From contig JAQSXN010000040.1 of the NCBI GenBank assembly GCA_029256665.1, forward strand, positions 1 through 12,318: a stretch of 12,318 nt of DNA. Direction: 5' to 3'. Made by a program: the position numbers and the translations under genes. The notes under the pieces were generated by a model. That model was not told where the DNA came from, made no database searches, and saw only the letters and a list, made by a program, of their open reading frames with translations. This document shows, piece by piece, positions 5,503 to 7,797 of this stretch. The stretch comes from Paenibacillus sp. (lineage in GTDB: Bacteria > Bacillota > Bacilli > Paenibacillales > Paenibacillaceae). Numbering within the stretch: position 1 is the stretch's first letter; every line of letters begins with the position of its first letter.

Positions 5503-6787
5503 TCAGCCCTCGGCTTCCGCTTCGACGAAGTCCTGCTTGAACCGCTCGTAATCGGCGAGCGTGCACTCCACCAGCATGCGCGTGCCTTCCTCCTCGTAAG
5601 TGGTCGACAGGACATTGGCGTGCTCGTTAAAGTAGGAGACCAGACGGCCTTGGCTGAACGGGATCAGAATGTCCTTCTTGACGTAGTTCGCGAAGATGTG
5701 CGAGCGCACGACTTCGATCAGCTCGGCAAGGCCTTGGCCTTCCTTGACGGACATGTACACCGAGTTGCCCGACTTCAGCGGGTACGGATGGTCGGTGAGA
5801 TCGCATTTGTTGTAGGCGTAGACGGTCGTGATGCCGTCGGCGCCGAGCTCGCCGAGCGTCTCGTTGGTGACGGAAACGAGCTGCTCGTAATCCTCGTGCG
5901 CGTAATCGACGACGTGCACGAGCAGATCGGCTTCCGTCACTTCCTCCAGCGTGGAGCGGAACGCCTTGATGAGGTGATGGGGCAGCTGGCTGACAAAGCC
6001 GACGGTATCCGTGAGCAGAAACGACTTGTTGTCCGGAAGTTCGATGCTGCGCACCGAAGTTTCAAGCGTGGCGAACAGCATATCCTTGGCGAATACCTGC
6101 TTCGTCGTATCGGGGTCGTACGTCTCCAGCAGCGCGTTCATCAAGCTGGACTTGCCGGTATTGGTGTAGCCGACGAGACAGACGACGGGCACTTCGTTTT
6201 TCTTGCGTTGCTTGCGCTGGTTCTGGCGCGTCATGACCAGCTTCTCCAGCTCGGCCTGCAGCGCGGTAATTCGTTCTTCGATCCGTCTGCGGTCGAGCTC
6301 GAGCTTCGTCTCGCCCGCGCCTCTGTTCTTGAGGCCGGAGCCGCCGCCTTGACGGCCGAGCGAAGCGCGTAATCCGACGAGACGCGGCAACGAATATTGC
6401 AAGCGGGCGACTTCGACTTGCAGCTGGGCTTCCCGCGTTTTGGCGCGTTCGGCGAAGATGTCCAGAATCAGGATCGTACGGTCGATGACCGTGCACTGCA
6501 GCTCCGACTCCAGGTTGCGAATCTGGGAAGGGGAGAGCTCGTCGTTGAAGATGACCAGCTCGCACTCATGCTTCCATCAGCGCGCGAAGTTCCTGGATTT
6601 TGCCCGTGCCGATATAATGCGACGAGTTGATTCGGTCCGCCTTCTGGCTGAGCTCGTCGACAACCTCGATAAAACAGGCGTCTGCCAGGTTGCGCAGCTC
6701 CATCATGGCGTATTCGAAGTCGGATCCTTTCTTGAGCTGGACGCCGACGATTATCGCTTTTTGTTTCGGTTGTTCTTGTTCCATCAT
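5503..6787 (-). pseudogene. hflX: GTPase HflX, interrupted by a frameshift
   Basis: HflX binds the 50S subunit, hydrolyses GTP and splits stalled ribosomes. The N-terminal fragment (6787-6566) gives 73 residues typical of the HflX N-domain, including KADRINSSHYIGTGKIQEL, and stops at TGA 6568-6566. The rest continues in another frame from about 6570: HECELVIFNDELSPSQIRNLE, DRTILILDIFAERAKTREAQ, GRQGGGSGLKNRGAGETKLELDRRR, then the G domain with GYTNTGKS (about 6171-6148), DTVGF and NKCD. All G motifs are intact. Restoring two bases (for example GAAGCGCATGAG for GAAGCATGAG) gives about 428 residues, normal for HflX, so loss of one GC unit is the simplest cause. Sequencing or assembly error is a real alternative. 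The second part has no credible start or ribosome site. The first ATG (6787-6785) is used, with GGAGGG ten bases upstream. Confidence 0.9.
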
Positions 6788-6820
6788 TTATATATCACCC
6801 TCCGGAATCGTTTTAGGTAC

Positions 6821-6847
6821 AAAAAAACACAGGCATATTTGCCCGTG
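6821..6847 (-). terminator. intrinsic terminator just upstream of hflX (possible attenuator)
   Basis: Read on the minus strand, CACGGGCA (6847-6840) pairs with TGCCTGTG (6835-6828), eight pairs with one G-U around AATA, followed directly by seven T residues (6827-6821). It ends 33 bases before the hflX start codon and 17 bases before its ribosome site, inside the leader. Readthrough would therefore be required for hflX expression from the promoter at 7179-7208. Confidence 0.8.
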
Positions 6848-7172
6848 CCCGAAAATATTCGACTTGAGGAAAAAGGAATGGCAAGTCCGCGCGAGCAGTA
6901 GGATGAACCAGCCGGGACTTGCTTCGCTCAAGTGCGTATCCCGCCCGGGGATGATATCACGAGAGAAGCGTGCGGCAAGACAATCCGGGAGAATCGAAAG
7001 CGATCATCGATCGCTGGCGATAGTCGGCTGCTGCGGGTTGCATGGGATCATGCGGACAGACCTATCCTGAGTCCTCTGCCGTACGGGCAGAGCTTATCGT
7101 ACTTTGCAATTAGCCGCGCAAAGACCTGACTCGGATGTAATCTATCACACGAAACCCTCCGTTCCTTGGAAT
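6821..7172 (-). ncRNA. candidate structured leader RNA of hflX (not a recognised family)
   Basis: The stretch between the HxlR-family gene and hflX is gene-free for more than 440 bases and dense in hairpins. In order on the minus strand: CTTTGC/GCAAAG (7123-7102) and CTCTGCC/GGCAGAG (7092-7074), enclosed by GAGTC/GACTC (7132-7128 with 7073-7069), which gives a three-way junction; GCATG/CATGC (7053-7040) enclosed by GATAG/CTATC (7066-7062 with 7023-7019); AGCGATC/GATCGCT (7015-6999); then four mutually complementary segments between 6933 and 6861; then the terminator at 6847-6821. A promoter candidate would start it near 7172. No T-box, SRP, RNase P, 6S or known riboswitch signature was recognised. 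It could be an attenuation leader or an independent small RNA ending at the terminator. Short open frames exist (for example 7043-6957, 28 codons) but lack ribosome sites. Confidence 0.45.
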
Positions 7173-7178
7173 GAGAAC

Positions 7179-7208
7179 AGTGTAGCACATGGACAAGGGC
7201 CGATTCAA
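7179..7208 (-). promoter_or_regulatory. candidate promoter for the hflX leader
   Basis: On the minus strand TTGAAT (7208-7203, 4/6) is followed after 18 bases by TACACT (7184-7179, 4/6). A TG one base before the -10 makes it an extended -10. It lies just past the end of the HxlR-family gene, and transcription would begin near 7172. Confidence 0.4.
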
Positions 7209-7230: not shown

Positions 7231-7581
7231 TTATTGCCGGATCTGTTCCTCGTCCGGATCGATCCATTGATGGGCCCATTCGGTAATGTTGATGAACAGC
7301 GGCGATAGGGCGCGGCCCTTGTCGGTAAGCGAATATTCGATACGCACGGGCATCTCCGGGTAAACATCGCGACGAACCAAGCCGCAAGCCTCCAACTCCT
7401 TCAGCCGATCCGACAATACCTTCCCGCTTAGGCTGGGCAGATTCTGCTCGATATCGGAGAATCGCCTTGGGCCCGGCAGCAGGCTGTACACGATCAAAGC
7501 GACCCAGCGCTTGCTAAGCAGCTCCACCGCTTTCTCGAACCTTGCGCACATTTGTCCCTGTTTCGGTTCCAAGAGGCACAT
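7231..7581 (-). CDS. HxlR-family winged-helix transcriptional regulator
   Basis: About 113-116 residues, depending on start. The HxlR (DUF24) pattern is clear: CARFEKAVELLSKRW at the N-terminus with the conserved Cys, PGPRRFSDIEQNLPSLSGKVLSDRLKELEACGLVRR as helix-turn-helix and wing, then PVRIEYSLTDKGRALSPL. These small dimeric repressors or activators often respond to electrophiles or oxidants through the N-terminal Cys; that is family knowledge, not shown here. The start is uncertain. The ATG at 7581 is directly abutted by GGAAAGG. The TTG at 7572 lies eight bases after that ribosome site, and the ATG at 7551 follows AGGGAC. The frame extends further upstream, but that part carries no family similarity. 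It is transcribed divergently from the small membrane protein at 7798, a usual arrangement for a regulator and its target. Confidence 0.88.
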   Translation of the reverse strand: MCLLEPKQGQMCARFEKAVELLSKRWVALIVYSLLPGPRRFSDIEQNLPSLSGKVLSDRLKELEACGLVRRDVYPEMPVRIEYSLTDKGRALSPLFINITEWAHQWIDPDEEQIRQ

Positions 7582-7635
7582 CCTTTCCGCGAAACGTGTT
7601 ATCCGATGACGGGTCTGCCGTTTCACCTTAATCCT

Positions 7636-7641
7636 ATTATA
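7636..7641 (-). promoter_or_regulatory. -10 element of the HxlR-family gene
   Basis: A perfect TATAAT on the minus strand lies about 55 bases upstream of the gene start. No good -35 hexamer is found 16-18 bases further up, which would fit a promoter needing an activator, but this is weak evidence. Confidence 0.35.
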
Positions 7642-7797
7642 GTCCTGAAGGCGCATACATGATAGGGGGATATTTCCCTTGATGCCGGAAGGAAATAGGC
7701 TGGGCGGGAGCGGAGCCCGCGAAACCTTTGGCATGCGGCCGGCGTCTATAAGGTAAGCATGACAACAATGCGGCAATGAGATGAGGAGAGTGCTTCC

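Follow-up and report, generated by a model that had tools for sequence, protein, structure and literature searches.

A putative ribosome-stalling attenuator upstream of hflX in a Paenibacillus contig, and the presence of its RNA element before macrolide and lincosamide resistance-type genes

Leaders in which a short upstream open reading frame (uORF) is associated with control of a downstream gene are known from several bacteria, and the following account relies on excerpts of the cited sources. The predicted RNA uORFC-6-1, reported in 2021 in a computational study, is found mainly upstream of hflX, with 51 examples that are mostly from Bacillales; it is described as a uORF with Arg-Leu-Arg and, past the start codon of this uORF, a covarying structure, and stalled ribosomes were suggested to influence hflX transcription (PMC8632094). 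In Listeria monocytogenes the attenuator rli80-hflXr was demonstrated experimentally, including induction by lincomycin and erythromycin through stalled ribosomes, and the second hflX copy, lmo1296, is reported not to be involved in resistance (PMC6310831). The ermK and mef(E)/mel leaders both encode MRLR leader peptides and act through transcriptional attenuation with a long-range anti-attenuator, and no discernible homology beyond the peptide was reported between them (PMC4335068). The vmlR and tlrB leaders of Bacillus subtilis combine a uORF with a drug-stalled ribosome; the vmlR uORF lies inside the anti-antiterminator, the tlrB peptide has the motif RYR, and a NusG-dependent pause has been reported for these leaders (PMC9226507, PMC6851288). 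Macrolide arrest is known to involve the motif Arg/Lys-x-Arg/Lys (PMC6851288, PMC6310831). Leaders have also been described for ermB on a Paenibacillus plasmid (PMC8116656) and for rli53 of Listeria (PMC11550727).

The window analyzed here, a stretch of 12,318 nucleotides from Paenibacillus sp. (contig JAQSXN010000040.1), includes an hflX gene whose leader is most likely a further hflX attenuator of the published kind, i.e. that of uORFC-6-1 and Listeria rli80 (Table 1). Two features of uORFC-6-1, the position upstream of hflX and a covarying RNA downstream of the uORF start, are found in the window element. The motif is Arg-Leu-Arg in uORFC-6-1 and Arg-Val-Arg in the window, and the two were likened by description. 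The excerpted description of uORFC-6-1 includes neither a terminator pairing nor a resistance gene besides hflX, whereas the scaffold studied here is also located before mph, erm, esterase, lmrB, mef, rlmA and short-chain dehydrogenase (SDR) genes, and an antiterminator partner was identified. As in rli80, there is an Arg-x-Arg uORF, a logic of anti-antiterminator, antiterminator and terminator (here in silico, the off state being leaky at many of the loci), and a second hflX copy. The likeness to rli80, whose uORF encodes 14 amino acids with RLR compared with 12 amino acids with RVR in the window, is one of logic and motif, the loci collected here being without Listeria. A leader peptide, transcriptional attenuation, and a long-range anti-attenuator are shared with ermK and mef(E)/mel as excerpted; the covariance model R1, described below, aligns the leaders of erm genes with those of mef-like genes from Bacilli, ermK and mef(E) themselves being outside the set. 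The window also has the uORF and the putative ribosome stalling in common with vmlR and tlrB, the downstream genes being different. No paper linking an hflX leader to mph, erm or esterase leaders was found in the open-access literature, nor any report of a scaffold common to resistance genes or of its antiterminator partner, of a three-codon uORF before macrolide esterases, or of an SDR gene under such a switch.

The comparison of these sequences makes it highly probable that a resistance-type hflX is controlled by ribosome-stalling attenuation through an Arg-Val-Arg leader peptide, with macrolides or lincosamides as the most likely trigger. Transcription from the promoter, starting presumably near position 7172, would generate an RNA whose first product is the 12-codon uORF MIDYIRVRSLRG. 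When no drug is present the ribosome would complete the uORF and depart, the uORF codons would pair with nucleotides 7073-7057 (P1), next to P2 and P3, and the terminator (6850-6821) would form, leaving hflX off. In the presence of a macrolide or lincosamide the ribosome would arrest at Arg-Val-Arg and occupy the P1 and P2 5′ strands. The P3 and P1 3′ strands thus freed would pair with the terminator 5′ arm and the bases preceding it to form an antiterminator, and RNA polymerase would read through into hflX, whose product, a second HflX, would be of the resistance type and would split stalled ribosomes.

Table 1. Features of the hflX leader in the window (coordinates are those of the window).
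Feature	Coordinates	Strand	Sequence or evidence
Promoter TTGAAT-18-TACACT, TG before -10	7179..7208	-	TGnTAnnnT upstream of 120/123 elements; retained in loci with a deleted leader
Conserved RNA element (Shine-Dalgarno, uORF, three-way junction)	7052..7164	-	R1 match, 105.8 bits (window is one of the 19 R1 training sequences, so this is the score of a training member)
uORF Shine-Dalgarno	7160-7155	-	GGAGGG
uORF, GTG...TAA, 12 codons	7110..7148	-	MIDYIRVRSLRG; conserved among relatives
P1 5′ strand (anti-antiterminator), from uORF codons 2-7	7128..7144	-	
uORF Arg-Val-Arg codons	7133-7125	-	
P2 hairpin over uORF end	7102..7123	-	CUUUGC/GCAAAG in the window
P3 hairpin	7074..7093	-	5′ strand and loop GCUCUGCCCGU, complementary to terminator 5′ arm
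P1 3′ strand	7057..7073	-	Alternative partners: uORF codons or bases before terminator
Antiterminator target: 25 bases before terminator, its 5′ arm and loop	6836..6873	-	Pairs with ~7093-7060
Intrinsic terminator	6821..6850	-	GGGCACGGGCAAATATGCCTGTG + TTTTTTT; terminator scan and comparison across loci
hflX Shine-Dalgarno region	6798..6804	-	CGGAGGG
hflX, start codon at 6787	5503..6787	-	Pieces 6566-6787 and 5503-6402, searched apart, each matched HflX

A sequence-only reading of the window had proposed a promoter candidate, about 385 untranslated bases, and a terminator with seven T residues placed 33 bases before the hflX start, and had suggested attenuation of an HflXr-like gene by an antibiotic-responsive switch. 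Both signals are present: the promoter, of the type TGnTAnnnT, has its -35 box at 7208-7203 and its -10 box at 7184-7179, and 33 bases separate the terminator end (6821) from the hflX ATG (6787). The description of the leader as untranslated was wrong, as it includes the conserved uORF with its GGAGGG Shine-Dalgarno sequence; the Arg-Val-Arg leader peptide and the antiterminator were missing from that reading. Pattern scans of the window alone gave numbers not above chance, with nine terminator-like sites (12.6 expected from shuffles) and eight promoter-like sites (6.5 expected), and the promoter was absent from the list of the mechanical scan, having 8 of the 12 consensus matches at a threshold of 9. 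The case for promoter and terminator is therefore based on the comparison among loci. The TGnTAnnnT sequence is found within 60 nt upstream of the element in 120 of 123 loci, compared with 125 of 2,480 control windows, and a terminator-like hairpin (dG <= -9) follows the element on the sense strand in 120 of 123 loci, compared with 16 of 123 in the antisense control. Three of the 120 hairpin loci (L046, L132, L092) were judged to be mis-called, not having the conserved hairpin, and were left out of the antiterminator tests; no hairpin was called in L054, L152 and L140. The terminator 5′ arm includes an exact CACAGGC in 85 of the 120 loci and matched variants in the others. The pattern scan also listed a promoter-like site, TTGCCG-16-TATCAT with TG, at 6978-6951, between the element and the terminator. 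Directly upstream of the hflX promoter there is an HxlR-family regulator (7231-7776), whose listed frame begins well before the HxlR domain. The hflX frame is interrupted at about position 6566 (codon 74) in this assembly; relatives have an intact gene, e.g. a 429-residue open frame in L123.

BLASTN comparison of the leader with 39 relatives and its own genome revealed a block of about 135 bases (window ~7189-7054) with 72-85% identity in 17 of the 39 relatives, all 17 with hflX just downstream; the sequence from the conserved block to hflX was mostly without a BLASTN match in the relatives. An alignment of 19 elements made without structure information (A1) yields a three-way junction in which the uORF codons constitute the P1 5′ strand. 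Seven pairs of A1 changed on both sides, compared with 1.3 in shuffles, and pairing was 94.4%, compared with at most 44.0% when the structure was slid. Since de novo RNAalifold predicted only P3 on a larger alignment of 85 diverse elements (A3), this alignment was scored with the A1 structure, as a test of a given structure. Pairing in A3 was 81.7%, compared with 74.3% in shuffles, and cells changed on both sides numbered 174, compared with 72.3 in shuffles and 48-114 when the structure was slid. Pairs with any both-side change numbered 22 compared with 18.6 in shuffles, of which 11 of 500 reached 22; two of the five A3 measures were only narrowly above the shuffles, being reached by 11 and 7 of 500. 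Compensatory changes among the leaders of relatives, a check that the sequence-only reading had proposed, are thus found in the fold, and the lack of conservation of terminator or leader among relatives that it had named as evidence against attenuation is not what was observed: uORF, fold, terminator and promoter are all conserved, which supports the proposed attenuation of an HflXr-like gene. What appeared to be tandem elements in L088/L310 proved, on inspection of the sequence, to be a single element whose P2 strands are separated by an insertion of roughly 100 bases or more; the L108 element is longer too (156 bases).

The covariance model R1 was built from the 19 sequences, of which 18 are hflX leaders, so hflX is over-represented. 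It had matches in 36 of the 51 genus genomes searched, in 232 of 392 at the level of the order and in 76 of 398 at that of the class, 48 of these last lying outside the order; stricter filters, at the cost of weak matches, applied in searches over 40 genomes. The genus has two hflX paralogues, that of the window and another about 40-44% identical to it. When positions were compared by hand, the element preceded 34 of the 39 hflX genes of the window type and none of the 35 of the other paralogue, a distribution reminiscent of Listeria with its attenuated hflXr and its second copy (PMC6310831); the window type is presumably the second, resistance-type HflX and the other copy the housekeeping one. 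One of the five window-type genes without the element is cut off by a contig end. The other four lie on intact contigs: in three (L229-L231) the conserved promoter adjoins hflX, and uORF, junction and terminator are all missing, a joint loss as expected of one module, and in the fourth (L228, genome G013) uORF and junction are gone and the terminator is kept, so that hflX would be expected to have constantly low expression. Among 80 named HflX loci, out of at least 576 found, 66 have an R1 match upstream on the same strand (E <= 0.01), some of these loci overlapping those counted in the other samples; in L265 the match is located about 1.3 kb from HflX. The listed HflX loci with a match include those of Paenibacillus, Cohnella and many Bacillus-related genera, and also both Anaerocolumna, the single Desulfosporosinus, a Clostridia MAG, and two of seven Clostridium. 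A uORF with [RK]x[RK] could be parsed in 62 of 67 matches at named HflX loci.

The 3′ half of the element, consisting of P3 and the P1 3′ strand, is complementary to the terminator 5′ arm and the 25 bases before it. In the window this duplex has an energy of -27.0 kcal/mol and is better than 99 of 100 shuffles, and in 105 of 117 loci the corresponding duplex is better than 95% of dinucleotide shuffles (hflX 73/85, mph 21/21, erm 5/5, esterase 6/6). Own duplexes are on average 5.7-10.2 kcal/mol better than those formed with partners swapped in from other classes. The own partner is within the best 10% of all swaps in 27 of 85 hflX, 15 of 21 mph, 4 of 5 erm and 3 of 6 esterase loci; swapped partners often pair equally well, and many hflX loci are therefore not set apart by their own partner. 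A simpler possibility, the P3 loop as a decoy of the terminator 3′ arm, was set aside in favor of the longer antiterminator, as full pairing of the 7-mer occurs in 43 of 120 loci and the 7-mer is absent in many. It covaries in some loci (GCCTGCG/CGCAGGC in four erm loci, GTCTGTG/CACAGAC in L017, GCCCGT/ACGGGC in the window).

Switching was simulated in 112 loci by partition-function folding of transcripts ending in the terminator loop, with the ribosome stalled at the motif represented as a mask; L060, L159, L158, L144 and L090, which have no parsed uORF, were also omitted. At least six antiterminator pairs formed in 111 of 112 loci with the stalled ribosome, compared with 50 of 112 without it (40 of 81 for hflX), so that the simulated off state is leaky in many loci. 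The mask gained more than one antiterminator pair in 86 of 112 loci and lost pairs in none, and a mask of equal length in the spacer was less effective in 108 of 112. In the window, simulated antiterminator pairs rose from 0.05 to 19.4 and P1/P2 pairs dropped from 18.5 to almost none. When folded at full length, L038 and L006 favor the antiterminator with no ribosome present, and in the minimum-energy structure of the entire window leader the terminator persists despite the ribosome. Switching specific to a position along the uORF was not seen, since masking any uORF codon freed the antiterminator in most of 18 loci; specificity must then come from dwell time. Taken together, the position-blind mask, the antiterminator formed without a ribosome and the full-length window fold mean that the model needs arrest time and co-transcriptional folding, both of which are presumed here.

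The leader could instead act chiefly at the level of translation, the closing stem or a later one hiding a Shine-Dalgarno sequence and the terminator having little weight. The bases after the element are complementary to the uORF Shine-Dalgarno region, with at least six pairs in 59 of 89 hflX loci compared with 9% of shuffles, and both layers are used by vmlR and tlrB according to the excerpted reports (PMC9226507, PMC6851288). Yet the window has just five such pairs, the complement targets the Shine-Dalgarno sequence of the uORF itself and not that of hflX, and the terminator with its T tract is near universal and has also disappeared from three of the four loci that lack the element; chiefly translational control is for these reasons very improbable, and transcriptional attenuation is the preferred reading.

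The uORF peptides of relatives have forms such as MIDFIRVRSLRG or MIDFIRVRTLRG, and 91 of 95 hflX-class uORFs have the motif [RK]x[RKW], its central residue being Val, Ile, Phe or Leu; RVR, the version in the window, differs from RLR, which is found in the leaders studied most closely. In these 91 uORFs the motif's second basic codon specifies Arg in 87 cases, Trp in two and Lys in two, and all six Arg codons are used at this position, which is unpaired in the A1 consensus and outside its helices. This codon usage argues that the peptide itself has been selected besides the RNA, i.e. that conservation acts on the uORF peptide and not on the RNA alone. Among the uORFs of the 172 elements discussed below, 15 fit neither of the two uORF types; some of these, such as L199, L222 and L224, are likely parser misses, L158 and L159 have no standard start codon, and others, including L206, L215 and two SDR leaders, are truly without Arg-x-Arg.

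These 172 elements are a non-random sample composed of 44 best hits, 80 chosen from the listed order and genus matches, and, from beyond the order, 48 of 51 hits of the class-level search (the others being in G588, G732 and G693). Gene classes were assigned by BLAST (E <= 1e-8) to the window HflX pieces and to references named by NCBIfam, and 20 downstream proteins were scanned with NCBIfam; Erm and the one esterase scanned passed a curated cut-off, and the matches of Mph, LmrB, Mef, RlmA and Tet were far below theirs (mostly allele-level models), so that these names stand for family resemblance. A recognized gene is located downstream on the same strand in 171 of the 172: 95 elements precede hflX and 73 precede genes of macrolide/lincosamide-resistance type (mph, erm, macrolide esterase, lmrB, mef, rlmA). 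Within the order (124 elements) the downstream genes are hflX (89), macrolide-phosphotransferase type (23), macrolide esterase (6), erm methyltransferase (5) and one unrecognized, that of L143, whose uORF is MANFIRWR. The 48 elements outside the order precede erm (13), mph (11), esterase (8), hflX (6), lmrB-type lincomycin efflux (4), mef-type efflux (2), SDR (2), an RlmA-type 23S methyltransferase (1) and a Tet-like transporter (1). The last, in L234, is an MFS transporter resembling Tet(A), and the uORF of the element before it is MAFFRVRLNLGAAN. Resistance to macrolides and lincosamides is the common factor and the strongest hint to the signal, and the occurrence of the same element before such genes lends support to the antibiotic-responsive switch suggested earlier.

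The esterase leaders (L085-L087, L124-L126, L194, L203, L205, L207, L208, L218, L221, L223) keep the RNA scaffold and have, in 13 of 14 cases, a three-codon uORF, M[L/V/A]N-stop, without Arg; that of L207 has four codons. The best NCBIfam model for the scanned esterase, L085, is macro_16_ester, a name read as action on 16-membered macrolides, and arrest on a three-codon uORF would presumably require a drug that blocks formation of the first peptide bonds. In two SDR leaders and one mph leader (L190) the uORF has six codons, the last of them for Arg. At E <= 1e-70 nine SDR homologues were found among 396 genomes: two of these had been found via the element, one (57% identity) gave a correctly oriented but weak match to the element (23.4 bits), and the element was found in none of the six with 43-47% identity. 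The SDR genes downstream of the element, L189 and L192 (NCBIfam NF006114) and L326 (weak hit), come from three bacterial families. From its position, the SDR under the element is possibly an unrecognized macrolide/lincosamide resistance enzyme.

These genes and peptides also bear on whether the uORF senses charged Arg-tRNA and not a drug, as an amino-acid-starvation attenuator would. Three of the twelve codons of the window uORF are for Arg, as such a sensor might have it, but the genes downstream are of resistance types and not arginine genes, the esterase-class uORFs do without Arg, and it is the Arg-x-Arg spacing that is conserved, not the number of Arg residues; we consider starvation sensing very unlikely. 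Hardly credible is an independent small RNA or protein-binding leader unrelated to hflX attenuation, such as the L20 leader, since the Rfam match to L20_leader (RF00558) is weak (18.8 bits, E 0.56), far under the gathering cut-off of 58.7 and on another stretch (6926-6815), and since a recognized same-strand gene follows the element in nearly all cases and the element complements its terminator in most loci tested. The window scored below the cut-off for every Rfam family, and Rfam searches of 20 other loci, 19 with the element, gave just one tRNA, located elsewhere.

Beyond drug-triggered attenuation of the window hflX, a broader reading can be put forward tentatively, at rather less than even confidence. 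An ancient attenuator scaffold may serve as a plug-in drug sensor common to many genes for intrinsic resistance to macrolides/lincosamides in Bacilli and, in the case of hflX, also in Clostridia, with the uORF tuned to the drug: Arg-x-Arg before hflX, mph, erm and mef-like genes, and M-x-N-stop before esterases, the latter arrested only by blockers of the first peptide bond such as the 16-membered macrolides. The scaffold would then detect unknown resistance genes and predict that the SDR subfamily acts on such drugs. If this is true, the leaders described gene by gene for hflX, erm, mef and rlmA/tlrB would be partly one RNA family with an explicit switch, which the mph, lmrB-type and macrolide-esterase genes would join. 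The correlation of uORF length with the type of macrolide enzyme makes the drug selectivity of leader peptides directly testable, and the element upstream of a gene would be a cheap pointer to unrecognized drug-defense genes in environmental bacteria.
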